Source: a virus
Direction: 5' to 3' (one strand)
DNA: 49,381 nt
Virus record (IMG/VR): IMGVR_UViG_3300027985_000864
Location: 1 to 49,381 of that record
Shown: one piece after another, positions 9,496 through 37,012 of the stretch
How the letters are laid out: every line of letters begins with the position of its first letter
Numbering within the stretch: position 1 is the stretch's first letter
Program-made: the position numbers and the translations under genes
Notes under the pieces: model-generated
The model's database searches: none
What the model was told of the DNA's origin: nothing
Seen by the model: only the letters and a program-made list of their open reading frames with translations

Positions 9496-9509
9496 GGTAT
9501 TCCTCCAAA

Positions 9510-22743: not shown

Positions 22744-22985
22744 AACTAAGGGCTTGTAAACATTTAGACTACGATGAAACCAAATATACATCTTGTCAAT
22801 TAATCGATAATCCAATCATTGGAGTAAAGTTTTGGAGAAGAAAAAAAGAAGCTGAAAACAATACCGAAAACCCGATAAATATTCAATTTTGTAAATTACA
22901 TGGTCGCATTAATTTGGTTATCGATTGCTATGAGCCTGGATTTATGGATTGTTATGAACCAATCGAAGAAGGAGAAGAAAAATGA
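22740..22985 (+). CDS. Cys-containing early protein, 81 residues
   Basis: Starts MKLRACKHLDYDETKYTSCQ at ATG 22740, with GGAGGA upstream; its start overlaps the previous stop and its end overlaps the next ATG. Six Cys residues (CKH, SCQ, FCK, DCYEP twice and an N-terminal one) suggest metal binding or a redox site. No family recognised. Confidence 0.6.
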   Translation: MKLRACKHLDYDETKYTSCQLIDNPIIGVKFWRRKKEAENNTENPINIQFCKLHGRINLVIDCYEPGFMDCYEPIEEGEEK

Positions 22986-23908
22986 TTATAGTTGGTGCTG
23001 GCCTAGCAGGACTATTAGCGGGGTGCCACTTTCAAAATGCGGCGATTATCGAAGCAGGGCCAAAAAGACAAAGTCACAAAGCACTATTAAGATTCAGAAG
23101 CAGCTCAGTTGGTGATTCAGTCGGCGTTGAATTTAAAAGTGTTAAGGTTTATAAGGGGATTTATGTTGATGGCAAATTCGAATCCCCGAATATAAAACTA
23201 GCGAACCAATACTCAAAAAAAGTAATTGGCAGTACAACAAATAGATCGATTTGGGACATTAATACTGTTGAGCGCTATATTGCTCCAGAAGATTTCATTG
23301 ATATTCTAATTGACAAATGTAGAAATCGAATATCTTGGAATGAACCGCTAAATCGAAATCTGCTATTAAGCCAACGCATTTCTAATTCATCACCAATTAT
23401 AAGCACGATGCCGCTTCCCATTTTAATTGGCATGTTAAAAGAGTTTGATGAATTCACAAATTACAAATTTCCAGAATTCAAATACTCAGACATCAACGTC
23501 GTTAGATGGAGAATAAATAATTGCGACGTAAATCAAACAATATATTTTCCTGACCCAGATTTGGCTTTATATCGAGCAAGCATAACTGGAAGCCTATTAA
23601 TTGCCGAGTTTAAAGGCAAGATGCCTATCGACAATGATAAAGGCTTAATCTGCGAAGCATTTGGAATCTGCGGTGAAAACTTAGAAAAGATCGAATATGG
23701 CTCTCAGCAGTTCGGTAAAATTCTTGAAATAGACGATAACTGGCGAAAGGCATTTATACATCGGTTAACGAATGATTACAGCATTTTTAGCCTTGGCAGG
23801 TTTGGCACTTGGAGGAATATACTGTTGGACGATGTGATCCACGATATAAGTGTTTTAAAGCGGCTTATTGGTGCAAGCAAGTATGATATAAGAATGAATA
23901 GCATATGA
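22982..23908 (+). CDS. FAD/NAD(P)-binding oxidoreductase
   Basis: A 308-residue protein beginning with a Rossmann dinucleotide fold: MIIVGAGLAGLLAG (GxGxxG) followed by an acidic residue at the end of strand two (AAIIEAGPKR). The rest resembles phage flavoproteins of unknown substrate: LANQYSKKVIGS, TVERYIAPEDFIDIL. It overlaps its neighbours by four bases on each side. It is two genes upstream of a ThyX homologue that would itself use FAD. A role in pyrimidine or base modification is a hypothesis; the fold call is firm, the substrate unknown. Confidence 0.75.
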   Translation: MIIVGAGLAGLLAGCHFQNAAIIEAGPKRQSHKALLRFRSSSVGDSVGVEFKSVKVYKGIYVDGKFESPNIKLANQYSKKVIGSTTNRSIWDINTVERYIAPEDFIDILIDKCRNRISWNEPLNRNLLLSQRISNSSPIISTMPLPILIGMLKEFDEFTNYKFPEFKYSDINVVRWRINNCDVNQTIYFPDPDLALYRASITGSLLIAEFKGKMPIDNDKGLICEAFGICGENLEKIEYGSQQFGKILEIDDNWRKAFIHRLTNDYSIFSLGRFGTWRNILLDDVIHDISVLKRLIGASKYDIRMNSI

Positions 23909-24132
23909 GCAAAAATAGAAGAAAGTTTCAAAAGTTAGTGTTACAAAATAATATTGCTTTGGAGGAATTTTTGTGGAAACATAAAGATAAAGGCTGCACG
24001 GCAAAAAAGGGCACTCCAGCTGTGTCTAATATTGATCTAATATTTGACGTTGATTTTCCTATTAATATTGAATATCAATCAAATGAAACTGGTGAAGTAT
24101 TTAAACTTGATTGGAAAGTAGTTTATAAATGA
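23905..24132 (+). CDS. Hypothetical protein, 75 residues
   Basis: Starts MSKNRRKFQKLVLQNNIALE, overlapping the previous stop (ATGA). A basic helical start is followed by a beta-rich C-terminus (INIEYQSNETGEVFKLDWKV). No family recognised. It is coupled to the FAD protein gene. Confidence 0.55.
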   Translation: MSKNRRKFQKLVLQNNIALEEFLWKHKDKGCTAKKGTPAVSNIDLIFDVDFPINIEYQSNETGEVFKLDWKVVYK

Positions 24133-24168
24133 ATCTGAAATAAAGCACAAATCTTGATGGAGAAAACG

Positions 24169-24366
24169 ATGAATAAAAATAATCCAAAAAATAGTATCGA
24201 GTGGCAACGCCATATGGCTTATCATTGTGAAGAAAATTCACATGCTTTAAATGATTGGGAGTGTGATTTTATTGAATCTATTAAAAATCGATTATTCAAC
24301 GATAAGCCATTAACTGACAATCAGTTAGAAATTCTTGAACGCATATACAATGAGAAAGTAATATGA
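24169..24366 (+). CDS. Conserved small phage protein, 65 residues
   Basis: Starts MNKNNPKNSIEWQRHMAYHC at ATG 24169 with GGAG six bases before it. The pattern DWECDFIESIKNRLFNDK, then LTDNQLEILERIYNEKV is shared by many small phage proteins of unknown function (two helices with a central turn). The stop overlaps the ThyX start (ATGA). Confidence 0.6.
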   Translation: MNKNNPKNSIEWQRHMAYHCEENSHALNDWECDFIESIKNRLFNDKPLTDNQLEILERIYNEKVI

Positions 24367-24971
24367 GCCCAAAGTTTCCGATAATTCAATTTGACTCTAT
24401 AGTCACATTAACCGATTATACATCAGAGCCGTTAGTCAAAATGGGTTTAAACGCTGCCATTTGTTACGACGGGAAAACAGACGAAGAAAGCAATAAAAAA
24501 CGGTCCAAGAGCTGTAAGGATAAAAGCCACTTAATGGTTGCTCGGTTCGCCTATGCTACTTTCAATATTAAGCAGATATCGAGAGTTTGTACACACCAAT
24601 TAGTTAGGATAGCGCACGCGGGTATCCTCCAAGAATCTCAACGATATGTTAAGCATTCAAGGGTTGAATTCGTCAATCCGGGCCAACTTTATAATATGTC
24701 TGAAGCATTTATTAAAAGGTGGAATGACCATTTACTGGCTGGAGAATTAATATATGAAGATGGTATTGGATTAGGAATGAAGAAAGAAGATGCTAGATAC
24801 ATATTATCACAAGCATGTACGTCCCAAGTTAATCTTTGCTTAAACTTTCATGGCTGGTCTGATTTTTTACATAATCGTCTTTCAAAAGCTGCGCAAAGCG
24901 AAATTAGAGCTGTTGCTGTGAAAATAAAAGATCAGCTAAACTCAATTTCAAATAATTATTTCGGAGAATAA
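24363..24971 (+). CDS. ThyX-family protein 1 (flavin-dependent thymidylate synthase homologue, diverged motif)
   Basis: A 202-residue ThyX fold. THQLVRIAHAGILQESQRYV (77-96) aligns with the ThyX signature HQLVRHRxxSxxxxSQRY, but the RHR becomes R82-I-A while Ser92 and the following QRY are kept. The C-terminal part has ARYILSQA and NFHGWSDFLHNRLSKAAQSE as in ThyX substrate-binding helices. ThyX makes dTMP from dUMP with FAD and methylene-tetrahydrofolate. Loss of His and the second Arg of the RHR motif could change substrate or reaction. A second, differently diverged ThyX is at 29863. Confidence 0.85.
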   Translation: MSPKFPIIQFDSIVTLTDYTSEPLVKMGLNAAICYDGKTDEESNKKRSKSCKDKSHLMVARFAYATFNIKQISRVCTHQLVRIAHAGILQESQRYVKHSRVEFVNPGQLYNMSEAFIKRWNDHLLAGELIYEDGIGLGMKKEDARYILSQACTSQVNLCLNFHGWSDFLHNRLSKAAQSEIRAVAVKIKDQLNSISNNYFGE

Positions 24972-24972
24972 A

Positions 24973-25194
24973 ATGTCTAAATGGGGCTTTGATGTGATGA
25001 ATCCTAATAAAACAATAATTTGCGGCAAAGGCAATGGCAAAGGTTGCGGAAAGGAATTTGTCACTAATTCAAGGACAAGAATATACTGCGACGTTTGCGC
25101 TGCAAAAAACAAATTAGAAACTAGAAATAGAAGCAATAAGAAACAAACGGCACTAAAAAAGAAAAAGCGAGAAAATGCTAAAGCAAATTCTTAA
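24973..25194 (+). CDS. Small zinc-ribbon-like protein, 73 residues
   Basis: Starts MSKWGFDVMNPNKTIICGKG one base after the ThyX stop. Cys residues in ICGKGNGKGCGKEF and YCDVCAAKN can form a four-Cys zinc site. The C-terminus is highly basic (NKKQTALKKKKRENAK). A nucleic-acid-binding role is likely by composition. A short imperfect repeat of TAACTCAA follows the stop. Confidence 0.6.
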   Translation: MSKWGFDVMNPNKTIICGKGNGKGCGKEFVTNSRTRIYCDVCAAKNKLETRNRSNKKQTALKKKKRENAKANS

Positions 25195-25232
25195 ATAACT
25201 CAATAACTAAATAACTCAAATTGGAGATTAAA

Positions 25233-26000
25233 ATGATATTTTTTAAAGTTGGCAAACAACTTGAAGTTGATAAAACTAAATTTGTAAATGTCATTATTAA
25301 GTTGTATCATATTCCAGCTGATGTGATTGCAGATGTTTTTATCAAAACAAAAAACTTTGAAGAAAGAAATGATGCAATTATAAATATTGGCTTCGTCGTA
25401 TATATGAATAAAATATTCGATATCAATCTAATAGGGATGAACAATGATGAACTTGAATATCACACTAACAAGAATATTCATGAATACATTCTAACGACTA
25501 TGAAATGTATTCAATATCTAGGATATAGTCTCAGCTACTTAGGTGCAGGCGGAAGTTGGGATAATTATTTCAGGATAAATAAGCCAAAAGGTAACGTCAA
25601 AGAAAGGTGCCGAAAAATAATTCCATTAAACATCACAGAAAATCAGATGTTGGCGTGGAAGATTGCTGATGTATTTTTAATGCCTGAAGAAATAAGGTCA
25701 AAAATAATTCGTGAATCGAAGGATAAAAAGGATCAAGTTTCAAGAATAATTGACATTTCATTTAAGTTTTGGCTATGCTCAAAGTTAAAAAGAGTGCCAA
25801 AAGATATTAAAGAGTTTGAAGAGCTTCTTTTTATCCACGCTGAAGCCTTCTTTGACTACGCATTATTGTCAGTTGAAAAAACCGGCTTCAATATGGATAA
25901 AATATATTGCAATGGACTTCACAATAGAAGCACGGCTGTTGCCATTATAAAAAGCAGACTGGAAGATTTAAAACTTAAAAGTGGAGATACAAATGAATAA
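25233..26000 (+). CDS. Hypothetical protein, 255 residues
   Basis: Starts MIFFKVGKQLEVDKTKFVNV at ATG 25233 with GGAG before it. Largely helical; a notable segment is YLGYSLSYLGAGGSWDNYFR, which looks like a ligand-binding loop, and the C-terminal YCNGLHNRSTAVAIIKSR. No family recognised. It overlaps the nucleotidyltransferase-like gene by eight bases, so the two are probably made together and may function together. Confidence 0.6.
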   Translation: MIFFKVGKQLEVDKTKFVNVIIKLYHIPADVIADVFIKTKNFEERNDAIINIGFVVYMNKIFDINLIGMNNDELEYHTNKNIHEYILTTMKCIQYLGYSLSYLGAGGSWDNYFRINKPKGNVKERCRKIIPLNITENQMLAWKIADVFLMPEEIRSKIIRESKDKKDQVSRIIDISFKFWLCSKLKRVPKDIKEFEELLFIHAEAFFDYALLSVEKTGFNMDKIYCNGLHNRSTAVAIIKSRLEDLKLKSGDTNE

Positions 26001-26895
26001 TATTCACTATGGTCGCAAACGTAAAAACATAATTGTCGCATTGAATCGCAAAATCGACGATTTTTTAAAAAGCATCGGCGATAAAGAAATCGGCCAAATA
26101 TTAAGTGATAATATAATTGTCACAGGCGGCTCAATTGCCTCGATGTTTATGGGAGAAAGGATTAATGATTATGATATTTATTTCAGAACAAAATACGCTG
26201 CTCTTATAGCGGCAAACTATTTTGTAAATAAATTCGCAGAATTGAATCCAGAAACATTTAACGTACCATTTGTCATCGAAGAAGAAGACAGAGTCAAGAT
26301 AAGAATCCAAAGCAGCGGTATTGCTAGCGAATCCGGCATTGTTAGCGAAATGTTTGCAGAAGATAAAGAAGAATTTGAAGTTGACGATGATTCAGAATCT
26401 TTGACTAAGCCGGAAACAAAAAGGCCAAAATATAGACCAGTTTTTATTTCGGCCAACGCCATAACCCTATCTGATGGAATACAAATCATCATTCGATTCT
26501 TTGGAAACTACGAAGAAATCCATAAATCATTCGACTTCGAGCATGCCAAGGGTTGCTTCGACTATTCCAATCAAAAGCTAATCGTTTCAAATAACACGCT
26601 GGAGTGCTACCTAAGCAGAACACTTGTGTATGGCGGGTCACTTTATCCGATTGCTTCGATATTCAGAGCAAAGAAGTTTATTCAACGTGGCTGGAGAATT
26701 AGTGCCGGTGAACTGTTAAAAATAATGTGGCAGATTTCAGAGTTAGATTTGACTGACTTCGACGTTTTGGAAGAGCAATTGACTGGCGTTGATATGGCCT
26801 ATATGTGGCAACTTATCGCTGCCCTTAAATCGGTCGATAAGGACAAGATAAATTCGACGTATGTCGCAGCAATTATCGATAGGATTTTCCAATGA
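25993..26895 (+). CDS. Nucleotidyltransferase-fold protein (phage family)
   Basis: A 300-residue protein starting MNNIHYGRKRKNIIVALNRK (ATG 25993 with GGAG). Residues 42-63 read as a pol-beta-type nucleotidyltransferase core: VTGGSIASMFMGERINDYDI, with GGS at 45-47 and acidic D59 and D61 as metal ligands. An acidic insert (EDKEEFEVDDDSES) interrupts the middle; IIIRFFG may supply the third strand. Similar proteins occur in many phages, with unproven substrate (RNA 3' end, tRNA or protein). It may modify host tRNA or be a counter-defence enzyme; that is speculation. Confidence 0.72.
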   Translation: MNNIHYGRKRKNIIVALNRKIDDFLKSIGDKEIGQILSDNIIVTGGSIASMFMGERINDYDIYFRTKYAALIAANYFVNKFAELNPETFNVPFVIEEEDRVKIRIQSSGIASESGIVSEMFAEDKEEFEVDDDSESLTKPETKRPKYRPVFISANAITLSDGIQIIIRFFGNYEEIHKSFDFEHAKGCFDYSNQKLIVSNNTLECYLSRTLVYGGSLYPIASIFRAKKFIQRGWRISAGELLKIMWQISELDLTDFDVLEEQLTGVDMAYMWQLIAALKSVDKDKINSTYVAAIIDRIFQ

Positions 26896-27025
26896 CGATT
26901 GCGCAGGTTGCTTTTTAACGAATTAGCCATGTATTCGTATGGCTTGGGCCGTGCATTGTGGAAATCCAAAATTTGCTATTAAAATCATAGACTTACAAGT
27001 GATAAAATTTCTGTAAAAATTTTTG

Positions 27026-27054
27026 TTTACTTTTGTGAAAAGGTGGAGTACAAT
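27026..27054 (+). promoter_or_regulatory. Tandem sigma70-like promoter P1
   Basis: -35 TTTACT (27026-27031), 17-base spacer, -10 TACAAT (27049-27054). The 30-bp unit from 27026 is repeated 88 bp downstream with one mismatch. Confidence 0.75.
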
Positions 27055-27093
27055 GTACACACGCTTAGGAAATCAGGAAGATTTAATAAAGCA

Positions 27094-27118
27094 GTAAAGC
27101 TGAAATAAAAAGCTTTAC
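27094..27118 (+). terminator. Attenuator-like hairpin between tandem promoters
   Basis: GTAAAGCT and AGCTTTAC form an eight-base stem with a nine-base loop, followed by TTTTG. It would weakly terminate transcripts from P1, and its right arm overlaps the -35 box of P2 (27114-27119). Confidence 0.45.
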
Positions 27119-27142
27119 TTTTGTGAAAAAGTGGAGTACAAT
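27114..27142 (+). promoter_or_regulatory. Tandem sigma70-like promoter P2
   Basis: -35 TTTACT (27114-27119), 17-base spacer, -10 TACAAT (27137-27142). Spacer sequence is the same as in P1 except for one base, which is more conservation than promoter function alone requires; the shared spacer may bind a regulator. Confidence 0.75.
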
Positions 27143-27198
27143 GAACCCACCCTTTGGGGATAGCCTGAAGGGATTAAAACTCAAAACTGGAGAAGACC

Positions 27199-28281
27199 AT
27201 GAAAACTTTAATTGAAACCCGTACCCGTAAACAATCTGCTGAAAAATTAGCAAAACAATATAACAAAGAACACGTAGAAGACGGTGGAAACATTGAATCT
27301 TATTATGCTGTTGAAAAAACCGAAGACGGTGTTTTTGGAGTTTTTAAAGTCGAAAACTCTGGTTTGATCGAAAGCCAACAAAATGAACCATTAAACCCAA
27401 ATTTGGAGAATGATATGCCAGAAGCATTTAAAGTAACGACCGAAGAAGAAGTTGTAATTGAAGCAACGGAAGAAGGCCAAGAGCCGACCACTGAAACCAA
27501 AACTGTTGAAACGATGTTTTTGGATGAAGACGATGCTAACGACTTTGCCGGTGAAAATGGCAGTGTTGAAAAGGTCGAAATCACCCAGGAAGAGCTTGAA
27601 GAATTAGCACGCCAATCCGTCGAAGCCGAAAAACAAAAAGAATTAGCGCGTGCGCAACATAACGCCAATATCGCAGAAGGCGTTAAAAAATCATGGGAAG
27701 ACAAAGAAGTGCGAGCTGCAAGAACAAGCCGAATCGGTATTAAAGTTGCGCCTTGCAAAATCGTTACAGAAAACGAAAAAACAACTGCTGTTCCGGTCGA
27801 AGGTGAAGGCTTTGAATTTACTGAATTTGCTTCTGTTAAAAAAGCATTCGATAAATTTGGCTTAAACGTTTCAAAATTCGTAGCATTCCGGGCACAATTG
27901 CGCTGCGCAGGTTCACTGGTATACCAAGAAGGCGAAAAAGCATATCTGTTCGAAGTAACATCAATTACATCTGCAGAAGATCGTGAAAAGGTCGCAGCTG
28001 CTAAAAAGGAAACTAAGAAAGCAGAGCCGAAAGAACAAGCAGAAAGCGGCAAAGCAGAAAGCAAAAAAGCCGGTAAAAAACGTGGTGGTAAAAAGTCTGC
28101 CGATAAAAAGGAAGAAAAGCCAGAAGCAGTTGACGGCGAATCAACTGACGAAACCGAAATTGCAGAAGCAGTTGACGGCGAATCAACTGACGAAACCGAA
28201 ATTGCAGAAGCAGTTGACGGCGAATCAACTGACGAAACCGAAATTGCAGAAGCCGCAGGTGAAGAAGTTTCTGGCGAATAA
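27199..28281 (+). CDS. Abundant acidic early protein with tandem repeats, unknown function
   Basis: A 360-residue protein under two tandem promoters, with GGAG before its ATG and a terminator after it. Residues 1-150 are acidic with a Glu-rich segment. Residues about 155-180 (NIAEGVKKSWEDKEVRAART) resemble short DNA-binding helices seen in phage homing proteins. About 205-255 form a compact domain (FASVKKAFDKFGLNVSKFVA). Residues 270-306 are Lys-rich (KKAGKKRGGKK), and the end has three identical 14-residue repeats EAVDGESTDETEIA. Basic plus acidic tail suggests a nucleic-acid or DNA-organising protein; unproven. Confidence 0.7.
   Translation: MKTLIETRTRKQSAEKLAKQYNKEHVEDGGNIESYYAVEKTEDGVFGVFKVENSGLIESQQNEPLNPNLENDMPEAFKVTTEEEVVIEATEEGQEPTTETKTVETMFLDEDDANDFAGENGSVEKVEITQEELEELARQSVEAEKQKELARAQHNANIAEGVKKSWEDKEVRAARTSRIGIKVAPCKIVTENEKTTAVPVEGEGFEFTEFASVKKAFDKFGLNVSKFVAFRAQLRCAGSLVYQEGEKAYLFEVTSITSAEDREKVAAAKKETKKAEPKEQAESGKAESKKAGKKRGGKKSADKKEEKPEAVDGESTDETEIAEAVDGESTDETEIAEAVDGESTDETEIAEAAGEEVSGE
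28123..28248 (+). repeat. Three perfect 42-bp tandem repeats
   Basis: Three contiguous 42-base copies encode three identical 14-residue units in the C-terminus of the 360-residue protein. I see no base differences between the copies, so the expansion is recent or is being homogenised; copy number may vary between isolates. Confidence 0.9.
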
Positions 28282-28293
28282 ATCCGGTAATAA

Positions 28294-28317
28294 TTGGTCT
28301 ATAAATTTATAGACCAA
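28294..28317. repeat. Perfect 24-bp operator-like palindrome
   Basis: A 24-bp perfect palindrome with core GTCTATAAATTTATAGAC, identical over 18 bp to the palindrome in the divergent control region. It lies thirteen bases after the stop of the 360-residue gene and before the terminator and the DUF932 gene. Confidence 0.75.
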
Positions 28318-28321
28318 ATCA

Positions 28322-28353
28322 GAAAGCCCCGGTATAATATCGGGGCTTTCATT
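28322..28353 (+). terminator. Intrinsic terminator after the 360-residue gene
   Basis: GAAAGCCCCG and CGGGGCTTTC form a ten-base stem with a nine-base loop, and the T residues of the right arm run into ATT. The loop itself contains TATAAT, so a promoter for the next gene could overlap the terminator. Confidence 0.7.
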
Positions 28354-28388
28354 AAAACTTAAAACTTAAAACAATCTGGAGAAATATC

Positions 28389-29381
28389 ATGGCACACGAA
28401 TTAGACATGAGTAATGGCCGGGCTAACGTTGTTATATTTAACGCAAACGGTCAAAATGATGCTTGGCATAAAATGGGCCAAGTATTAACTGATGGCGGGA
28501 ATATAGACCAATGGCGAGTCGAAGCCGGCTTGGATTGGACTGCTAAAAAAGTCCCTGTCAAATTCAACGTTAATTGCGCAGTTCATTCGATGGATGATAA
28601 ATGTGTTATTTACAGAGAAGATACTAATGCTGCTTTGGGAATTGTTTCTCCAAAGTATAAAATCGTTCAGCCTGGTGAAATTCTCGAATTTTTCCGTGAA
28701 TTAGTTGAATTAGGTAATTTCAAAATGGAAACTGCCGGAAGTCTTTTTGGCGGTACAAAAATATGGGCCCAAGCAAAAACCGGTGATAATTTCAAATTAA
28801 AAGGCGTTGATGAAATTAAGCCTTATTTATTGCTTGGCACTTCGATGGACGGAAGCCTAGCGACCGTTGGCCACTTTACAACTACAAGAGTTGTCTGTAA
28901 TAATACGCTTAGGATGGCAATAGGCGATTCAGGGCAAAAAGCTCAAGTAAGAATAACCCATTTATCAGACTTTAATGCAGACCAAGTAAAAGCGCAACTA
29001 GGGCTGGCAGACGACTCATTTCAAAATTTTATCGAGAAAGCGACTATTTTGGCAAACTACAAAATATCGCGCAATGATGCTATAGATTTTATGGCTGAAC
29101 AATTGAAACTCGAAAAAGACGGTGATGATGAAGAAAATGGGGCATTATCTTCTTCAAAAGAACTAAAGCAAATTATCGAATTATTCCAAGGCCGTGCAAA
29201 AGGGGCGAATCTTGAAACGTCAAAAGGCACCGCGTGGGGACTTGTAAATGCTGTAACGCAATTTTATGATCACGAAGTCGGAAGACGTGGCGATGGAAGC
29301 AGGGCATTTGATCGCGGCCAATTCGGAGATAGAGCAGGGTTCAAAGTAACAATTGCAAATCGGCTTCTTGAAGCAGCGTAA
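28389..29381 (+). CDS. DUF932 (phage/plasmid-like) protein
   Basis: A 330-residue protein matching the DUF932/TIGR03299 plan: AWHKMGQVLTDGGNIDQWRV near the start, VVSP-like ALGIVSPKYKIVQPGEILEF, ETAGSLFGGTKIWAQAK, and TTTRVVCNNTLRMA. The family is common in phages and plasmids; its function is not established, with links to DNA metabolism suspected. The gene has GGAG before the ATG and sits between two intrinsic terminators, so it forms its own transcription unit. Confidence 0.88.
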   Translation: MAHELDMSNGRANVVIFNANGQNDAWHKMGQVLTDGGNIDQWRVEAGLDWTAKKVPVKFNVNCAVHSMDDKCVIYREDTNAALGIVSPKYKIVQPGEILEFFRELVELGNFKMETAGSLFGGTKIWAQAKTGDNFKLKGVDEIKPYLLLGTSMDGSLATVGHFTTTRVVCNNTLRMAIGDSGQKAQVRITHLSDFNADQVKAQLGLADDSFQNFIEKATILANYKISRNDAIDFMAEQLKLEKDGDDEENGALSSSKELKQIIELFQGRAKGANLETSKGTAWGLVNAVTQFYDHEVGRRGDGSRAFDRGQFGDRAGFKVTIANRLLEAA

Positions 29382-29385
29382 ATGG

Positions 29386-29413
29386 AAGGGGCTTTATGCC
29401 CCTTTTGTTTTTT
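29386..29413 (+). terminator. Intrinsic terminator after the DUF932 gene
   Basis: AAGGGGC and GCCCCTT form a seven-base stem with a five-base loop, followed by TTGTTTTTTG. It begins five bases after the DUF932 stop. Confidence 0.8.
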
Positions 29414-29429
29414 GGTAAATGTGTATATT

Positions 29430-29627
29430 ATGAAAATAACAGAAAATAAAATTATTGAATTGTGTATCGAATATCCAACTTTGGAGTCTGAAAAGGTTCA
29501 TGAATATCTTAAAGATAGATTTGGTGATGGCAATTATAAAATAATTGAAACTGGGCCAAAAAGAATTTCTGCTAATAAGGCAGATTGCTCTAAAAGAGTT
29601 ACAATTATTCACGCAATTATTGATTAG
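29430..29627 (+). CDS. Hypothetical protein, 65 residues
   Basis: Starts MKITENKIIELCIEYPTLES at ATG 29430. An in-frame ATG at 29382 was rejected because it would place the coding frame through the terminator stem. The protein is a small alpha/beta unit ending SKRVTIIHAIID. The ribosome site is weak. No family recognised. Confidence 0.5.
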   Translation: MKITENKIIELCIEYPTLESEKVHEYLKDRFGDGNYKIIETGPKRISANKADCSKRVTIIHAIID

Positions 29628-29635
29628 GCATTATT

Positions 29636-29833
29636 ATGAATAGACAAACTGATATAAGACCAGAAAGCGAAGAAGAACTTAAACGGCATTTGGAAAATGG
29701 TGAACCGCTATGGACTGAATGCTTACGTTGTAAAAAAACTTTTTCAAGTGAAAATACACATACTAATCTAGGTTGGATGGAAACTCAAATCAGCGGCTTT
29801 TGCGAAGATTGTTTTGACGAAGTAATGCCATAA
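29636..29833 (+). CDS. Small zinc-ribbon-like protein, 65 residues
   Basis: Starts MNRQTDIRPESEEELKRHLE. Two CxxC pairs (ECLRCKKTF and GFCEDCFDEV) form a likely zinc ribbon. An acidic helix precedes it. It lies 29 bases upstream of the second ThyX gene. No function assigned. Confidence 0.6.
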   Translation: MNRQTDIRPESEEELKRHLENGEPLWTECLRCKKTFSSENTHTNLGWMETQISGFCEDCFDEVMP

Positions 29834-29862
29834 TTCCAACTCAATAGAAATAAGGTAACAAA

Positions 29863-30639
29863 ATGAATAAAATATATCCAATCAAAGTCGAATTATTAAC
29901 CTGCACCCCTGATGCGCTTAATCTTTTGCTTAAAACAAAAAATACTCGATTAACAACCGACGATAATCCAGAATTATGGGACGACGAAAAGCGCATTGAG
30001 CATTTAGAGTATATGCGTGATACAATTAAATCATCTTGGGAATTTGTCGATTATACATTCCAGATTGACATTGTCACAAGAGCTTTTACACACCAATTAG
30101 TTCGAACCAGAACAGGCTCATATGCCCAACAAGCAATGCGAGTTGTTGATGCTCGTGAATTTGGAACTACTTGCCCGCCTTCGGTCGAAGCGAATGAAGC
30201 TGCAAAAGCGGTGTGGGAAGACGCTATAACAGAATTGTTTTCGAAATATGGCCAAATCGTCGATCTAGGTGTGCCCATACAAGACGCCAGGGGTATCCTA
30301 CCGACCAACGTGCAGACGCGCATTATGGCCAAATTTAACCTGCGTACTTTACATGAAATGGCCAAACTTAGACTTTGTACCCGTACTCAAGGTGAATATC
30401 AAGATGTTTTCCGGTCGATGCGTGAACTGGTAATCGAAGTTCACCCTTGGGCAAAAGAGTTTCTTGAAGTATATTGTGTTGCCAACGGTACATGCGCTTT
30501 CCCTCGATACGGTGTCAAAGAATGTCCTGTTTATTTCCCAGAATTGGATAATACAGACGTCAAAGAAAAAGCAAAAGAACTATTTTGGTCGATACGGTAT
30601 GAAGCTGCGCCAGTTGCTAAAAACGGAATGGCAATGTAA
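29863..30639 (+). CDS. ThyX-family protein 2 (flavin-dependent thymidylate synthase homologue)
   Basis: A 258-residue ThyX. FTHQLVRTRTGSYAQQAMRV (76-95) aligns with the ThyX signature RHRx7S: the motif is R81-T-R83 and the usual Ser is Ala91. The C-terminal half has ARGILPTNVQTRIMAKFNLR and CTRTQGEYQDVFRSMRE, close to ThyX substrate-binding segments. It keeps both Arg residues, so it is the better candidate for a real dTMP-forming ThyX than the protein at 24363. AAGG precedes the ATG. The gene ends at an inverted-repeat terminator. Confidence 0.87.
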   Translation: MNKIYPIKVELLTCTPDALNLLLKTKNTRLTTDDNPELWDDEKRIEHLEYMRDTIKSSWEFVDYTFQIDIVTRAFTHQLVRTRTGSYAQQAMRVVDAREFGTTCPPSVEANEAAKAVWEDAITELFSKYGQIVDLGVPIQDARGILPTNVQTRIMAKFNLRTLHEMAKLRLCTRTQGEYQDVFRSMRELVIEVHPWAKEFLEVYCVANGTCAFPRYGVKECPVYFPELDNTDVKEKAKELFWSIRYEAAPVAKNGMAM

Positions 30640-30717: not shown

Positions 30718-31134
30718 ATGTTAATTGGACAATTCACAATTTCACTTGATGGCGATAATTTTTCTTGTCAATTTGACGTAGAAGAAGATGCGATTGAGCA
30801 TGGCAAACTAATGATGGATGCTGCAGGCACAAATTCTTTTTTCGTAGGCAAAACAATTCACCCAATTAAAAAGATTGGTGAATTAAAGGCAAATTTGAAT
30901 ATAGTTTCAATGGTCGTTATCGATAAATTGGACGAAATCATTTCAATTGATTTTGAAATTGATAAAACTCAAATTATTAATATGACGGCAGAACAAAAAC
31001 TTGATTTGGCAAATTTGATATTCCGTTATATCGAAGACAATGTTTCAGTTTCTTGGGTTACCGTCGATGAAATATCAAAATATAAAATTGACGAAGAAGG
31101 AAAGCCTGTAAAATTGGAGGTTGGAAATGTTTAG
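30718..31134 (+). CDS. Hypothetical protein, 138 residues
   Basis: Starts MLIGQFTISLDGDNFSCQFD with GAGGG before the ATG. Alternating strands and acidic helices (IISIDFEIDKTQIINM; ANLIFRYIEDNVSVSW). No family recognised. It overlaps the HAD phosphatase gene by eight bases, beginning a tight operon of nucleotide-related genes. Confidence 0.6.
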   Translation: MLIGQFTISLDGDNFSCQFDVEEDAIEHGKLMMDAAGTNSFFVGKTIHPIKKIGELKANLNIVSMVVIDKLDEIISIDFEIDKTQIINMTAEQKLDLANLIFRYIEDNVSVSWVTVDEISKYKIDEEGKPVKLEVGNV

Positions 31135-31594
31135 AATTATCGACCTTGATAACACAATCTCAGATGATAGCTGGCGAATTCCTAGAATAAATTGGAAAAA
31201 GGAAAATATGATGGAGCGTTATCACAATTACCACACTTCGTGCTTATTCGACGAATTCAAAAACAAACATGTAATTGAAACTGAATCAAAATTAATCGTT
31301 TTTACAGCGCGGCCTGTTTTGTACCGGGAACAAACCGCAATGTGGTTGAATAGAAATAAAATAAATTGGCGAAACATATATATGCGCCCCAATAACGATC
31401 ACACTCATTCAATTGACTTAAAAGAAGGGATGCTGTTACAAATGTTTAGTGATTTTAATATTGGGCCAGATAGCATCGAGCAGGCCTTTGATGACAGGCA
31501 AGACGTTATTGAAATGTTTGTTGGATATGGAATTCCAGCAACTTTGACTAAAATACACGATGTTTGCGCTTATACAAAGCCGGTAGCAATATGA
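31127..31594 (+). CDS. HAD phosphatase, PNKP 3'-phosphatase type
   Basis: A 155-residue HAD-fold protein at ATG 31127 (GGAGG upstream). Motif I is DLDNT (D6, D8), motif II is the Thr in VFTARP (T60), motif III Lys is in DLKEGML (K99), and motif IV is AFDDRQDVIEMF (D122, D123). The layout (FTARP, then WLNRN, then YMRPNND.....DLKEGML) is like the phosphatase domain of T4 polynucleotide kinase, without the kinase. It could remove 3' phosphates from nucleic acid ends or phosphate from a nucleotide; the partner kinase is not seen. Confidence 0.8.
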   Translation: MFRIIDLDNTISDDSWRIPRINWKKENMMERYHNYHTSCLFDEFKNKHVIETESKLIVFTARPVLYREQTAMWLNRNKINWRNIYMRPNNDHTHSIDLKEGMLLQMFSDFNIGPDSIEQAFDDRQDVIEMFVGYGIPATLTKIHDVCAYTKPVAI

Positions 31595-31887
31595 AAGAAG
31601 AAACTGCTGCAGACATTCTCGAAGAAATGAAGCAGATGTATATTAGCAAATCTGCCGAATATGGAGCAAACTTTACAAAGCCGCGTGATATTATCAGGAT
31701 ACTATTCCCAGACGGGGTGCCATCAGAATTAGTCGATTTGACCCAGTGGCATATATTTGAAATGATTATCACAAAGATTGTAAGATTTGCAGATAACAAT
31801 CTTAATCACATTGATTCGATTCATGATATTGGCGTTTATAGCGCAATAACCGAAGAGATAATCAAGAATCCAAAAAAGCATAGGTAA
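31591..31887 (+). CDS. DUF1599-like (nucleotide modification associated) protein
   Basis: A 98-residue protein at ATG 31591, overlapping the HAD stop (ATGA). The pattern KSAEYGANFTKPRDIIRILF....FEMIITKIVRFADN....HIDSIHDIGVYSAI matches small helical phage proteins of the DUF1599/DUF6378 kind, in which a D-x-x-x-D-I-x-x-Y motif closes the fold. DUF1599 has been listed among domains associated with nucleotide modification. This is family-pattern recognition; the reaction is not known. Confidence 0.65.
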   Translation: MKEETAADILEEMKQMYISKSAEYGANFTKPRDIIRILFPDGVPSELVDLTQWHIFEMIITKIVRFADNNLNHIDSIHDIGVYSAITEEIIKNPKKHR

Positions 31888-31891
31888 TAAC

Positions 31892-32581
31892 ATGTCAAAT
31901 ATTTTAATTACAGGATCATCAAATGGACTTGGCAAATTACTAGCTGAAGCATTGGATAAACAGGGGCATAATATATTGTGTTATGATCTTGAAAACTCGA
32001 TGGACGTTAGAAAGCCGCATGATTCATTAATAGTGTCATGCGCTAAATTTGGCGGCGTCGATATATTAATAAACAATGCCGGTGTAAATTCACTTGACTG
32101 GTTTATCAATTTCGAAGAATCAGAATGGGATAGGGTATTTGATACCAATGTAAAAGGAATTTTCAAAATGACACAGGCAACTCTTCCGTTATTAATTGGG
32201 TCAAAAGGAACAATTCTAAATATAAGTAGTGATGCTGCTTGGCGGCCAATGCGTTGTTCCACTGCTTATTGCTCCAGCAAGGCTGCGGTTGAAATGATGA
32301 CAAAACAGCTTGCTAGGGAATTAACAAAAGAGCATGGCATAACAGTATTCGGTATTTCACCAAATAAACTTGCCGGGACAAATATGTCAAAATATGTTGA
32401 CGATATAGTTCCAGAAATTCGCGGCTGGTCTAAAGAATACGCAAAGGAATATCAGCTCAGCGCCTTAGTAACTGGAGAAGAAACTGACCCAAACCAATTA
32501 GTCGAATTCATCTGCTTTTTATTGCAAGATAAAGACCACCACAAATACTTGTCTGGCTGTATAATTCCATACGGGGCTTAA
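31892..32581 (+). CDS. Short-chain dehydrogenase/reductase (SDR)
   Basis: A 229-residue SDR: cofactor motif TGSSNGLG (7-14), NNAG (61-64), Asn86 (DTNVKG), Ser112/113 (NISSD), catalytic Tyr126 and Lys130 (YCSSK). The C-terminus SGCIIPYGA resembles the usual SG-x-x-x-x-DGG ending. All active-site residues are present, so it is likely active with NAD(P)H. SDRs are uncommon in phages; here it is embedded in an operon with the HAD and DUF1599-like genes, so it may act on a nucleotide or cofactor, for example a pterin or a sugar. Confidence 0.88.
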   Translation: MSNILITGSSNGLGKLLAEALDKQGHNILCYDLENSMDVRKPHDSLIVSCAKFGGVDILINNAGVNSLDWFINFEESEWDRVFDTNVKGIFKMTQATLPLLIGSKGTILNISSDAAWRPMRCSTAYCSSKAAVEMMTKQLARELTKEHGITVFGISPNKLAGTNMSKYVDDIVPEIRGWSKEYAKEYQLSALVTGEETDPNQLVEFICFLLQDKDHHKYLSGCIIPYGA

Positions 32582-32926: not shown

Positions 32927-33481
32927 ATGAAAAAGCAATTAAAATTTTTGGTGTTTGATACGGAAACGACCGGATTAACACTGCCTAGCGTTTCAGACCT
33001 TTCTAAGCAGCCAAAAATAATAGAATTTGGAGCTTTAATAACAGATGGAAAGGAAATTCTGAAAACTTACAATCAATTAATAAATCCAGGAGAACAAATA
33101 ACAGCAGAGATAATGAAAATAACAGGAATTACAAACGACGATTTAAAAGACAAACCGAGATTTGGAGAAGTTTACAGCGAAATAAAGGATTTGTTTGATG
33201 GTATCGACGTATTGCTAGCGCATAATGCTCCATTCGATACTAGCCTTTTGAAATTCGAATTAGCACGACTTGGTGCTGAAGACTTCATTTGGCCTGAAAG
33301 GATAATTTGTACTGTTGAAGAATATGTTCCTGAATTTGGATTTCGCCCTAATTTACGAAAATTGTATGAGCGTAAATTAGGGATTGAGTTGAAACAAACC
33401 CATAGGGCAATCGACGATGTATTGGCATTATGCGAGTGCTTATTTAAAGATAGTTATTTTGAATACTTAATTGGAGAATAA
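32927..33481 (+). CDS. DnaQ-like 3'-5' exonuclease (DEDDh)
   Basis: A 184-residue exonuclease with the complete DEDDh set: D11 and E13 in FDTETTG, D104 in HNAPFD, H159 and D164 in HRAIDDV. It resembles the proofreading epsilon subunit of Pol III. Two genes downstream is a DnaE-type polymerase with a degenerate PHP domain, so this protein is the likely proofreader. Its stop lies two bases before the dUTPase GTG, which uses the ribosome site inside its last codons. Confidence 0.9.
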   Translation: MKKQLKFLVFDTETTGLTLPSVSDLSKQPKIIEFGALITDGKEILKTYNQLINPGEQITAEIMKITGITNDDLKDKPRFGEVYSEIKDLFDGIDVLLAHNAPFDTSLLKFELARLGAEDFIWPERIICTVEEYVPEFGFRPNLRKLYERKLGIELKQTHRAIDDVLALCECLFKDSYFEYLIGE

Positions 33482-33482
33482 A

Positions 33483-33980
33483 GTGAAAGCAATTATTAAA
33501 TTATCAACACAAGATGAAACAATTATCATTCCAAAATATGAAACAGAGTATAGCTCTGGAATCGATCTGCGATCAAATGAAGATTTGTTTCTATATCCTG
33601 GCGAATATAGGGCAATAAAAACCGGTCTTCGTATGGAAATCCCAGAAGGTATTGAAGGCCAAATAAGATCACGTTCCGGGCTGGCTGCGAAATTCGGCAT
33701 ACATGTTATGACTTCACCAGAAGGCTTAACCGATAAATGTAAACAAGATTGCGTTTTTGTTCTCAACCAGCCTGGAACTATTGATTCAGATTATCGTGGT
33801 GAAATTATGGTAATTCTGAAAAATTCTGGTTATAACTCTTTTGAAATTAAAAAAGGCGATAGAATCGCGCAAATGGTATTTGCCAAATTTGAAAGAGTAA
33901 ATTTGATGGTCGTTGACCAATATTTGCTAAGTGAAACTGGTCGTGGGGCAGGCGGCCTTGGAAGTACAGGAATGAATTAA
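33483..33980 (+). CDS. dut: dUTP pyrophosphatase (trimeric)
   Basis: A 165-residue dUTPase with all five motifs: SGIDLRS (25-31), RSRSGLA (62-68), GTIDSDYRGEI (98-108), RIAQMVF (127-133) and the Gly-rich GRGAGGLGSTG (153-163). Start GTG 33483 is preferred over TTG 33471 because GGAG is six bases upstream of it. Between motifs 2 and 3 there is an insertion (SPEGLTDKCKQDC) with two Cys, not usual in the family. It converts dUTP to dUMP, which feeds the ThyX proteins, and keeps uracil out of DNA. Confidence 0.95.
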   Translation: MKAIIKLSTQDETIIIPKYETEYSSGIDLRSNEDLFLYPGEYRAIKTGLRMEIPEGIEGQIRSRSGLAAKFGIHVMTSPEGLTDKCKQDCVFVLNQPGTIDSDYRGEIMVILKNSGYNSFEIKKGDRIAQMVFAKFERVNLMVVDQYLLSETGRGAGGLGSTGMN

Positions 33981-34237: not shown

Positions 34238-37012
34238 ATGTATCAATTAAGAATTAGAACAGAATACAGCTTTGGCAGAGTATATGGCCCAATAAATAAA
34301 ATAATTGAACGACTTAAATCAATTAATTGCCTATCAGCAGGGATTGTAGACAATTCAACTTGGGGCCACGTTCCATTTTATAATGAATGCAAAAAGAGTG
34401 GAATTAAGCCTATATTGGGCGTTGAAATAATCGTAACAGACGACGATATTGCTACGAAAATGTGGTTTTTGGCTAGAAACCAAAAAGGATTAAAAGAGCT
34501 ATACAACTATACAACTAAATCACACCAGACACCGTTTATAGACAAAAAGGGTTCAAACCCTAGATTATATAGGCACGACGTGTTGTGTATGTCTCAGGAC
34601 ATATTAAAATTCGCAGGCGACATTACAGATGGCGAGTTTCTCAAAGACTGCGGTGCCTATATAGATTTGAATCCTGGGAGTAATTTGCTTAATATTAAAA
34701 AGAAACGAATGGCGGAACAATATGGAATTGGCGATAAGCTGTTTTCAACTTCTGATAATTATTACCCTAAAGAAGACGACAAAGACATTTTCGAAATATT
34801 GGTACATGGAGGATTAAAGCCTTCAAAACAATATATTCTTGAAACATTAGAAGGCCAAGATATTTCAAAGCAAATTGACGACCTTTGTGAATCATACGAA
34901 TTACCAAAAGCTCCAATGATACATATGGAAGGCGATTTGGAGAAGCTTTGCCGTGACGGGATTAAATTTAGGGAAATGGAAGTAATTTGGGATGAAGTAT
35001 ATGAAACAAGGTTAAAATATGAACTAGACCTTATTCACCAAAAGGATTTTGAAAGTTATTTTTTGGTTGTTGCTGATATGGTTAATTTTGCTAAGCAGCA
35101 TATGCTTGTTGGCCCTAGCCGTGGCTCATCAGCTGGAAGTTTAGTATGTTATCTTGCAAGAATTACCGAGATTGATCCAATTCCTTCAAAATTATATTTT
35201 GAAAGGTTTATTGACGTTAGCAGGTCAGACTTACCTGATATTGATTTAGATTTTCCTGACAATAAAAGAATTCTAATTTTTGAATATATGGCTGAGAAAT
35301 ATGGAATAGATAATACAGCGCATATCGGTACAATATCAAAGCTAAAATCAAAGAGTGCCCTAATTCACGCTTGTAAAGCATTAAATATTCCGCCAAGTGC
35401 AACTGCTGCTGTAAAAGTAGCGATGATCGAAAGGTCTAGTGCTGATGCTCGTGCTAGTAATTGTTTACAAGATACTCTGGAAACTACTGGGCCTGGCAAG
35501 TTATTCGTGCAATCTTATCCGCAAGCAAAATTAGCGATGAATATCGAGGGGCACGCAAGACACACCGGGGTTCACGCAGCAGGTTTATTAGTATGTAATG
35601 ATATTATTTCAAACTATTGTACAGTTGATAATAATGGTATCGCTCATATAGAGAAAAAAGCAGCAGAGCAATTAGGACTTCTTAAGATTGACGTTTTGGG
35701 CCTTCGAACGTTAGGCATATTGGAGGATTCAGGTGTCAATATTGACTGGTATAATTTAAAATTTGATGATCAAGAGACTCTTGATATATTCAATAATAAT
35801 CGCCTTTCTTGCATATTCCAATTTGAAGGACAGGCAATGCAATCTGTGGCAGAATTTGTAAAGTTTAAAAGCTTGACGCAAATTGACGCTGTAACGGCAT
35901 TAGCAAGACCTGGGCCATTTGGCGGTGGGGTAACTCAAAAATATCTCGAAAGAGAAGCTGGAAAAGAATATGAGCCTATTCACCCATTAGTACAAGAGTT
36001 TATGAAAGAAACTCATGGTTTGCCTATATACCAAGAACAAACTATTTCAATTGTTAAGCATATAGGGCTATTTAATTGGGAAGAAACAAATGCTGTTAGA
36101 AAGGGGATGAGTAAATCACTTGGCGAAGAGTTTTTTCATCAATACAAAGAAAAGTTTATACAAGGTGCAGTTTCACAGGGTATCGAACCGGGAAAAGCAG
36201 AAGAAATATGGCTATTGATTAGCACCATGGGTTCATGGCAAATGAATAAATCGCATACATATTCTTATGCTGTAATATCATATTGGACTGCGTATTTAAA
36301 GGCCCATTATTTGCTCGATTTTGCAGCTGCTAATCTTCGAAACGCAAAGGACGAAGAAAGTGCACTATTGCTTTTAAGAGAATTGGTGAAAGAAGGTGTT
36401 GAATATATTCCATTTGATATTAATTTATCAGAAATGAATTGGAGTGTAAAAGACGGGAAACTTGTTGGTGGCTTTATGGCTTTAAAAGGGATTGGTGAAA
36501 ATAAAGCAAAGAAATTAATTGAAGCAAGGAATAATGGTGGATTAACTTCAAAACAAATAGAATCAGTCAACAACAGCCAGTGCGTATTCAACGATATATT
36601 TCCAATCAATACTCTTTATGGCGATATGTATGAAAATCCCGAAAAATACAATATATCAGGTGAAATTATTCATATTGAAGAGCTGAAAGAAGGGATGCCG
36701 CATTGTTGCGAAAGAGTATTCATTTGCGAATTGGTTCATAAAAACCCTAGAAATGCTAATGAGGAAAACGAAATCAAAAAGCGTGGTGGCAAGATCGAAA
36801 CTGGTCAGCTTGAATATTTGGATGTAAGACTTCGCGATGATACCGGGATTATAGGTGGAAGAATTGGAAGAAGAGATTATTTCAGGCTTGATGCACCGGG
36901 AATGATCCAAAACGTTCCAATTGGTTCTTATCTTTTAATCAGGGCGCAATTCTTTAACGGTATTCGATATGCTTTTATCAAAAAATGGAAGCAATTAAAA
37001 TTGGCCAATTAA
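34238..37012 (+). CDS. DnaE-type DNA polymerase III alpha subunit
   Basis: A 924-residue C-family polymerase. The N-terminal PHP domain (MYQLRIRTEYSFGRVYGPIN) lacks the metal-binding His pair of active PHP domains. The catalytic core has GPSRGSSAGSL (292-302), PDIDLDFPD (333-341; D334 and D336) and the third Asp485 in LKIDVLGLRTL. HARHTGVHAAGLLV precedes it. The C-terminus has an OB-like region (YLDVRLRDDTGIIGGRI). It is shorter than bacterial DnaE (about 1,160 residues), lacking much of the tau-binding end. With the DnaQ-like protein it forms a proofreading replicase. Confidence 0.93.
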   Translation: MYQLRIRTEYSFGRVYGPINKIIERLKSINCLSAGIVDNSTWGHVPFYNECKKSGIKPILGVEIIVTDDDIATKMWFLARNQKGLKELYNYTTKSHQTPFIDKKGSNPRLYRHDVLCMSQDILKFAGDITDGEFLKDCGAYIDLNPGSNLLNIKKKRMAEQYGIGDKLFSTSDNYYPKEDDKDIFEILVHGGLKPSKQYILETLEGQDISKQIDDLCESYELPKAPMIHMEGDLEKLCRDGIKFREMEVIWDEVYETRLKYELDLIHQKDFESYFLVVADMVNFAKQHMLVGPSRGSSAGSLVCYLARITEIDPIPSKLYFERFIDVSRSDLPDIDLDFPDNKRILIFEYMAEKYGIDNTAHIGTISKLKSKSALIHACKALNIPPSATAAVKVAMIERSSADARASNCLQDTLETTGPGKLFVQSYPQAKLAMNIEGHARHTGVHAAGLLVCNDIISNYCTVDNNGIAHIEKKAAEQLGLLKIDVLGLRTLGILEDSGVNIDWYNLKFDDQETLDIFNNNRLSCIFQFEGQAMQSVAEFVKFKSLTQIDAVTALARPGPFGGGVTQKYLEREAGKEYEPIHPLVQEFMKETHGLPIYQEQTISIVKHIGLFNWEETNAVRKGMSKSLGEEFFHQYKEKFIQGAVSQGIEPGKAEEIWLLISTMGSWQMNKSHTYSYAVISYWTAYLKAHYLLDFAAANLRNAKDEESALLLLRELVKEGVEYIPFDINLSEMNWSVKDGKLVGGFMALKGIGENKAKKLIEARNNGGLTSKQIESVNNSQCVFNDIFPINTLYGDMYENPEKYNISGEIIHIEELKEGMPHCCERVFICELVHKNPRNANEENEIKKRGGKIETGQLEYLDVRLRDDTGIIGGRIGRRDYFRLDAPGMIQNVPIGSYLLIRAQFFNGIRYAFIKKWKQLKLAN

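Follow-up and report, generated by a model that had tools for sequence, protein, structure and literature searches.

In the ThyX of Thermotoga maritima, His53 forms a stack with the folate and a bond with Tyr91, and Ser88 and Tyr91 have been proposed to aid the departure of the hydroxyl group from the flavin carbinolamine; the exchanges S88A, R90A and Y91A/F slow the consumption of this carbinolamine (by >100-fold for Y91A), and a 1000-fold slower flavin oxidation has been cited for Tyr91 (PMC8316439, PMC11940539). Arg80 is among the direct contacts of the same enzyme with deoxyuridine monophosphate (dUMP) (PMC3498832). A second, neofunctionalised ThyX, PolB, has been described in polyoxin-producing Streptomyces, with a substrate specificity that is partly lost (PMC5954106). 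Here we analyse two ThyX genes, ThyX1 and ThyX2, that lie within a single virus record of 49,381 bases (IMGVR_UViG_3300027985_000864; the whole stretch is referred to as the window), which is classed as linear and is possibly a fragment. Residue positions in both proteins follow the numbering of T. maritima ThyX.

Two ThyX genes of separate origin

The two PF02511 open reading frames (ORFs) that a first-pass annotation had noticed from the letters of the window were both recovered and are the only ones in the record. ThyX1 (24363-24971, plus strand, 202 amino acids; E=1.4e-34, 120 bits) is a homologue from a viral ThyX clade, and ThyX2 (29863-30639, plus strand, 258 amino acids; E=3.7e-35, 122 bits) belongs to a clade of the PB1/Wifcevirus type, the PF02511 cut-off being 24.8 bits. 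Our analysis shows that the two genes have different histories, in that ThyX2 is a resident of a PB1/Wifcevirus-type replication module and ThyX1 comes from an unrelated phage lineage and sits inside an insertion. With an identity of ~27% between them and a placement in separate clades, a recent duplication of one gene is ruled out.

The phylogeny that had been proposed as a check was run on 160 sequences using a quick method, with the Shimodaira-Hasegawa-like approximate likelihood ratio test (SH-aLRT) as its only support. ThyX2 falls into a separate 68-row clade together with Pbunavirus, Wifcevirus and Carpasinavirus (SH-aLRT 99), and ThyX1 into a 12-row clade (support 98) within a 21-row group (support 97), nested among ThyX whose catalytic residues are normal. 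Mycobacteriophage rows are attached to the ThyX2 clade by long branches, which leaves its outer position unsure, while the clade itself is well supported.

The neighbourhoods of the two genes agree with the tree. ThyX2 relatives have a replication module in common, with DNA polymerase III alpha found in 48/48 and the exonuclease in 46/48 of the loci with sufficient downstream DNA, and the same gene order is seen in Carpasinavirus XcP1, Wifcevirus Bas101, Luteibacter phage Pluto and Pbunavirus Ab27; Vibrio phage VA-RY-3 has a ThyX2 module that is partly in common with the window. In these relatives ThyX2 mostly lies next to a flavoprotein gene (phrog_4828), whereas in the window the pair is split by ~6 kb of DNA holding ThyX1, from which we conclude that ThyX1 arrived by insertion into the unit. 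The inserted segment (23905-29833, plus strand) contains, besides ThyX1 and small ORFs, one gene of phrog_4400 (25981-26895), one resembling phrog_4730 (27199-28281) and, shortly upstream of ThyX2, a DUF932 gene (28389-29381, E=4e-55). The inserted genes between 25221 and 26895 occur in none of the other ThyX2 loci, and those starting at 27199 and 28389 occur in 4 each (of 85). Relatives of ThyX1 are the lone ThyX of unrelated phages that have practically no other gene in common with the window, and their clade is almost exclusively viral. An origin of ThyX1 in a bacterial host was considered and rejected, as scanning 84,980 genomes with a pattern from the ThyX1 alignment returned no close bacterial relative and three weak matches only, the best at 36% identity in a metagenome-assembled genome (MAG) of Planctomycetota and the other two in MAGs of Bacillota. 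Carrying two ThyX genes is unusual for a phage: a second one was seen in 0/100 other ThyX-bearing virus records, many of which are fragments, and uniqueness is not implied.

The motif differences described by the first-pass annotation are as it read them. ThyX1 has R78-I79-A80 and retains Ser88, Arg90 and Tyr91, and ThyX2 has R78-T79-R80 followed by Ala88, Arg90 and Val91; neither protein carries the RHR(X)7S motif. The idea that these differences reflect divergence inside one phage had to be given up, since each ThyX has its own wide clade with the same substitutions and with members that carry a single ThyX. Likewise, the argument that one phage needs only one thymidylate synthase does not by itself point to a new function, as one of the genes is an insertion. 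The substitutions common to the relatives (Ala80 in 17/17 for ThyX1; absence of His53 and of Tyr91 in 80/80 for ThyX2) are not what random decay would leave. They also bear on a mixed tetramer, in which ThyX2 would contribute the Arg78/Arg80 loop and ThyX1 would contribute Ser88, Arg90 and Tyr91, each repairing the other. In ThyX, three subunits do contribute to one active site (PMC5954106), and the two sets of defects look complementary, but the proteins are no more than ~27% identical, and substitutions that are fixed in single-ThyX phages did not arise for mutual complementation. A complementary heteromer is thus rejected as the origin of the substitutions, and we regard a mixed tetramer in the window as highly improbable.

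ThyX2 and its flavoprotein partner

In addition to Ala88, ThyX2 has two changes that the first-pass annotation had not mentioned, namely His53 to Ile and Tyr91 to Val. Across 80 sequences of the ThyX2 clade, His53 is replaced in every one (Ile 76, Val 3, Leu 1), and so is Tyr91 (Val 36, Thr 31, Ala 7, others). Among 44 cellular ThyX sequences, His53 is found in 40/40, Ser88 in 41/42 and Tyr91 in 41/44. The exchange of Ser88 for Ala, which the first-pass annotation did mention, is the least telling of the three, given that position 88 in the clade is Ser in 38, Ala in 21 and Thr in 21 of the 80; on the evidence of these alignments, the loss of His53 and Tyr91 is what distinguishes the clade. 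Gln75, Arg78, Arg80, Arg147, Arg165 and Arg174 are invariant in it, and Arg90 is present in 79. This pattern suggests that binding of flavin adenine dinucleotide (FAD) and activation of dUMP have been kept, and that folate stacking and the acid for methylene transfer have been lost. The fold is that of ThyX, with a model at a predicted local distance difference test (pLDDT) score of 90.5 and ThyX structures as the best Foldseek matches (E 1e-12), plus a C-terminal extension of ~55 residues. Against the TIGR02170 thyX equivalog profile (cut-off 87.9 bits) ThyX2 scores 91.6 bits, barely above; the Pbunavirus and Wifcevirus proteins score 86.9 and 83.1, both under the cut-off, and a canonical phage ThyX scores 181. 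That residues thought to be catalytically important are absent would suit a relic that has lost its activity, or a part of the replication module that does not act as an enzyme, an explanation that we consider very unlikely: the dUMP- and FAD-binding arginines are invariant or nearly so in 80 diverse sequences, and phages infecting many different hosts have retained the gene together with its module, which is not the pattern of decay.

The ThyX of mycobacteriophages Aikoy and SirHarley also has Leu in place of His53 and Ala or Phe in place of Tyr91, and no phrog_4828 gene was seen in the 2-3 kb examined around it; these proteins may form another atypical ThyX group.

The flavoprotein gene of the window (22982-23908, plus strand; phrog_4828, E=5e-89) encodes a GxGxxG FAD motif and weakly resembles amine oxidases and UDP-galactopyranose mutases. 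An alignment of the family shows the FAD motif and a conserved ALLRFRS motif, and its profile, when compared with PDB and Pfam, returned the FAD motif and a weak similarity to amine oxidase/UDP-galactopyranose mutase (PDB E >=0.04, that is, at least this value). The association with ThyX2 is close to obligate. Among ThyX2 loci with at least 1.5 kb of upstream sequence, phrog_4828 lies upstream of the gene in 73/76; the two genes share a strand in every case and mostly adjoin or overlap. Near other ThyX genes phrog_4828 was found in 0/133 loci. It occurs in 359 of 50,697 phage records, and the numbers of flavoproteins and ThyX2 are equal for Pseudomonas (291), Escherichia (27), Serratia (9) and Xanthomonas (6) when compared by organism name rather than by individual record. 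The Gordonia, Mycobacterium and Microbacterium phages whose ThyX matches ThyX2 are not among the organisms listed for the flavoprotein in this set. The 203-kb Rhizobium phage TM61 carries the flavoprotein-ThyX2 pair on a different backbone, the rest of the module being absent from the 8.5 kb examined. Frame changes that resemble many indel errors fragment three genes of Pseudomonas phage WP1, those for the flavoprotein, ThyX2 and the polymerase, and modified DNA in nanopore reads is one possible cause of these breaks.

The explanation that we favour, at a probability of about 0.4, is that the two genes are not only of two origins but also divide the labour, ThyX1 acting as synthase of deoxythymidine monophosphate (dTMP) and ThyX2 producing, together with the flavoprotein, another C5-substituted deoxyuridylate. 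ThyX2 would bind FAD and activate C5 of dUMP through the retained Arg78, Arg80, Arg90, Arg147 and Arg174. It would do so in the absence of the folate-stacking His53 and of the general acid Tyr91, which in classical ThyX help to expel the hydroxyl of the flavin carbinolamine, and it is from the loss of these two residues that a product other than dTMP is proposed. Candidate products are 5-hydroxymethyl-dUMP or an oxidised or aminated derivative, and the modified nucleotide would then be incorporated into phage DNA, where it could aid escape from restriction. A base-modification role for ThyX2 and the flavoprotein is therefore plausible, and unproven. The suggestion of the first-pass annotation that one of the two ThyX has an altered function survives in this form, with ThyX2 and its flavoprotein as the candidate instead of ThyX1.

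Almost as likely is that both proteins are dTMP synthases, with ThyX2 a divergent one in which the missing residues have been substituted and the flavoprotein serves as a helper (electron donor or one-carbon supplier), and with ThyX1 a redundant gene brought in by insertion. The ThyX fold and most of the dUMP- and FAD-binding arginines are kept in each protein, and each kind is the sole ThyX of its phages, as would fit an enzyme that boosts dTMP. Moreover, ThyX can use formaldehyde directly (PMC8316439), so that a ThyX without the histidine could take its one-carbon unit from another source, which an amine-oxidase-like partner might supply. Set against this, the loss of His53 and Tyr91 in 80 sequences combined with a near-obligate flavoprotein exceeds what neutral divergence would give, and T. 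maritima ThyX is severely impaired when Tyr91 is mutated (PMC8316439, PMC11940539).

ThyX1 as a probable dTMP synthase

ThyX1 departs from classical ThyX at other positions than ThyX2. Apart from the change at position 80, two were not in the first-pass annotation: Arg165 to His and E58R. The clade has the motif R[IMV]A-H-A-G-[IL]-L-Q-[ER]-S-Q-R-Y, and all 17 sequences retain His53, Gln75, Arg78, Ser88, Arg90, Tyr91, Arg147 and Arg174, with Ala at position 80, Arg at 58 and Gln or His at 165 fixed in 17/17. Glu58 is invariant in the cellular ThyX sequences that cover this position. The gain of Arg58 alongside the loss of two arginines looks compensatory, we infer. The AlphaFold model has a pLDDT of 79.2 and ThyX structures as its best Foldseek matches (E 2e-11, template modelling score 0.78-0.82), and the TIGR02170 score is 82.9 bits. 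Around the relatives of ThyX1 we found MazG, DUF3310, PhoH and a dATP/dGTP diphosphohydrolase domain, which by the look of these genes is an ordinary nucleotide-metabolism setting.

An opposite assignment of roles would make ThyX1 the altered enzyme, with the loss of Arg80 and Arg165 and the gain of Arg58 retuning the pocket for another nucleotide or cofactor form, and would leave dTMP synthesis to ThyX2. It draws on the role of Arg80 as a direct dUMP contact (PMC3498832), on the joint fixation of E58R, R80A and R165Q/H in 17/17 relatives and on the score under the thyX equivalog cut-off. The surroundings of the clade make it unlikely, since ThyX1 is nested among phage ThyX in which His53, Ser88 and Tyr91 are complete and position 80 is K, S, P or T (K, S, P, T or A in the nearest outgroups), Arg165 is kept in only 22/43 of the other phage ThyX, so that both positions look tolerant, and the relatives carry ThyX1 alone with no consistent modification partner. 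ThyX1 is most likely an acquired dTMP synthase, going by its residues and context, and would be an FAD- and folate-dependent enzyme that tolerates R80A and R165H.

Restriction data and base modification

A more far-reaching version of the favoured explanation, which we put forward only tentatively and hold to be rather doubtful as a whole, is that ThyX2 and phrog_4828 constitute a flavin-based pathway to a C5-modified deoxyuridylate for phage DNA, which would be the first base-modification system built on ThyX and would explain the resistance of Wifcevirus. Relatives provide circumstantial evidence, and no proof, for a ThyX2 product of this kind. Wifcevirus isolates resist nearly all restriction systems tested, with no known mechanism of protection (PMC11990801). 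A PB1-like phage was the only sample in its set that EcoRI and HindIII did not digest completely (PMC3634792), and phage DNA containing 5-hydroxymethyluracil is EcoRI-resistant and accessible to most enzymes (PMC7653180). Pbunavirus AA20 resists 10/16 enzymes (PMC11945000). In the genome of HTN3, which is probably the same phage as AA20, SmaI and XhoI have no sites and five more enzymes have 1-3 sites, so only part of the AA20 resistance needs explaining. In both Ab27 and HTN3, SmaI and XhoI sites are absent, and there are 31-38 EcoRI and 30-31 EcoRV sites (~12 expected in Ab27).

Several observations count against a modification pathway fed by ThyX2, or against the division of labour on which it builds. 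The presence of no more than 1-3 sites per genome may be all that lies behind several of the AA20 resistances, and incomplete digestion can stem from DNA quality. Pbunavirus JG024 is cut by SacII into fragments roughly as expected (PMC3008698), and AA20/AC20 are digested by MspI, HpaII and HindIII (PMC11945000); cutting by SacII, MspI and HpaII argues against cytosine modification and not strongly against modification of thymine. Some mycobacteriophage ThyX lack His53 and Tyr91 with no flavoprotein nearby, and these losses may accordingly have other causes. ThyX1, the presumed dTMP synthase, has lost an arginine (Arg80) that contacts dUMP in the T. maritima enzyme (PMC3498832), and it falls under the thyX equivalog cut-off (82.9 vs 87.9 bits), which ThyX2 narrowly exceeds (91.6). 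In the literature we found no report of a ThyX-type hydroxymethylase or of modified bases in PB1-like phages, and no chemical or enzymatic datum, nucleoside analysis included, on ThyX2 proteins or the DNA of ThyX2 phages. Finally, the avoidance of six-base palindromes according to their A/T content gave no discrimination: as a sign of thymine modification it was rejected, the same gradient being present in ThyX2, ThyX1 and other phage loci. Known hypermodification enzymes (5-hydroxymethyldeoxyuridine kinase, aGPT-type) were not recognised among the window proteins scanned, which represent part of the ORFs of a record that may be a fragment.

Gene content of the window

No near-identical named phage was found for the window by megablast. 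Its structural genes include an HK97-type capsid, portal, terminase and tape measure, and its replication module comprises DNA polymerase III alpha, an exonuclease, an SNF2-type helicase and a PrimPol-type primase. Downstream of ThyX2, the following genes lie on the plus strand. One encodes a HAD phosphatase domain of the polynucleotide kinase/phosphatase type (31121-31594; PF25109, E=5.2e-7), with a homologue in 58/85 ThyX2 loci, followed by a DUF6378/DUF1599-like helical domain (31564-31887; weak Pfam match, corresponding to the C-terminus of phrog_4889), with a homologue in 65/85. In the window these two ORFs (31121-31887) overlap in different frames; Carpasinavirus, Wifcevirus and Luteibacter phage Pluto encode them as a single fused protein. 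The difference could reflect a split gene, a programmed frameshift or an assembly error. Further downstream are a short-chain dehydrogenase/reductase of the ThyX2 module (31892-32581; PF00106, E=1.3e-39; 40/85 loci), a DEDD exonuclease that is the polymerase exonuclease subunit (32927-33481; PF00929, E=7.7e-33; 72/85), a dUTPase that would supply dUMP (33471-33980; PF00692, E=2e-27), seen in 1/85 of the other ThyX2 loci, and DNA polymerase III alpha (34238-37012; PF07733, E=7.6e-65), which is present in 48/48 ThyX2 loci with >7.5 kb downstream. The dUTPase, the FAD-motif protein and the DUF1599-like ORF listed by the first-pass annotation are hence all encoded. A sulfotransferase-like protein (PF13469, E 5.8e-7) is encoded two genes downstream of ThyX2 (9234-9986) in Vibrio phage VA-RY-3.

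Comparison with known systems

The main interest of the locus lies less in its having two ThyX genes than in the ThyX2-flavoprotein unit, which occurs in well-known, cultivable phages. Some 359 isolated phages carry members of a clade that is labelled thymidylate synthase and is without residues regarded as strictly conserved and catalytic, so that either the classical view of what ThyX requires is incomplete or ThyX2 phages produce something other than thymine. Should the modification pathway be real, hundreds of sequenced phages, therapeutic Pbunavirus among them, would carry it under the name "thymidylate synthase", and it would provide a mechanism for a hitherto unexplained restriction resistance (PMC11990801), with the window as a natural two-enzyme case in which an additional, ordinary ThyX supplies dTMP.

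Compared with classical ThyX (TM0449, Mycobacterium tuberculosis ThyX; Thy1, PF02511, TIGR02170), both proteins have the fold together with Gln75, Arg78, Arg90, Arg147 and Arg174. ThyX1 is without Arg80 and Arg165, whereas ThyX2 is without His53, Ser88 and Tyr91 and has phrog_4828 and a C-terminal extension in addition. An atypical ThyX of Corynebacterium glutamicum (PDB 3ge9), which according to its PDB title is not required for thymidylate biosynthesis, keeps His53, Arg80 and Ser88 and has Phe at position 91, unlike ThyX2. PolB resembles the situation in the window in being a special ThyX paralogue beside an ordinary one, and it methylates uridylates at C5; the analogy lies in the second ThyX, and the special ThyX described here differs in that it resides in a phage replication module, has a flavoprotein as its partner and is widespread in single copy. 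With regard to its possible role, ThyX2 would be analogous to the ThyA-type dUMP/dCMP hydroxymethylases of SPO1 and T4 and to the thymine hypermodification of M6, ViI and phiW-14, the shared element being a phage-encoded enzyme of the thymidylate synthase type that yields a modified pyrimidine nucleotide, although ThyX and ThyA are not homologous. The nearest relatives of ThyX2 are those of Pbunavirus, Wifcevirus, Carpasinavirus, Pluto, VA-RY-3 and TM61, which belong to the same clade, have lost His53 and Tyr91 and have the flavoprotein partner; the replication module is common to the window and most of these phages, in which ThyX2 is annotated as thymidylate synthase. They have Thr88 with Ala, Ile or Val at position 91, compared with Ala88 and Val91 in the window, and it is only in the window that the pair is split by an insertion and accompanied by a second ThyX.

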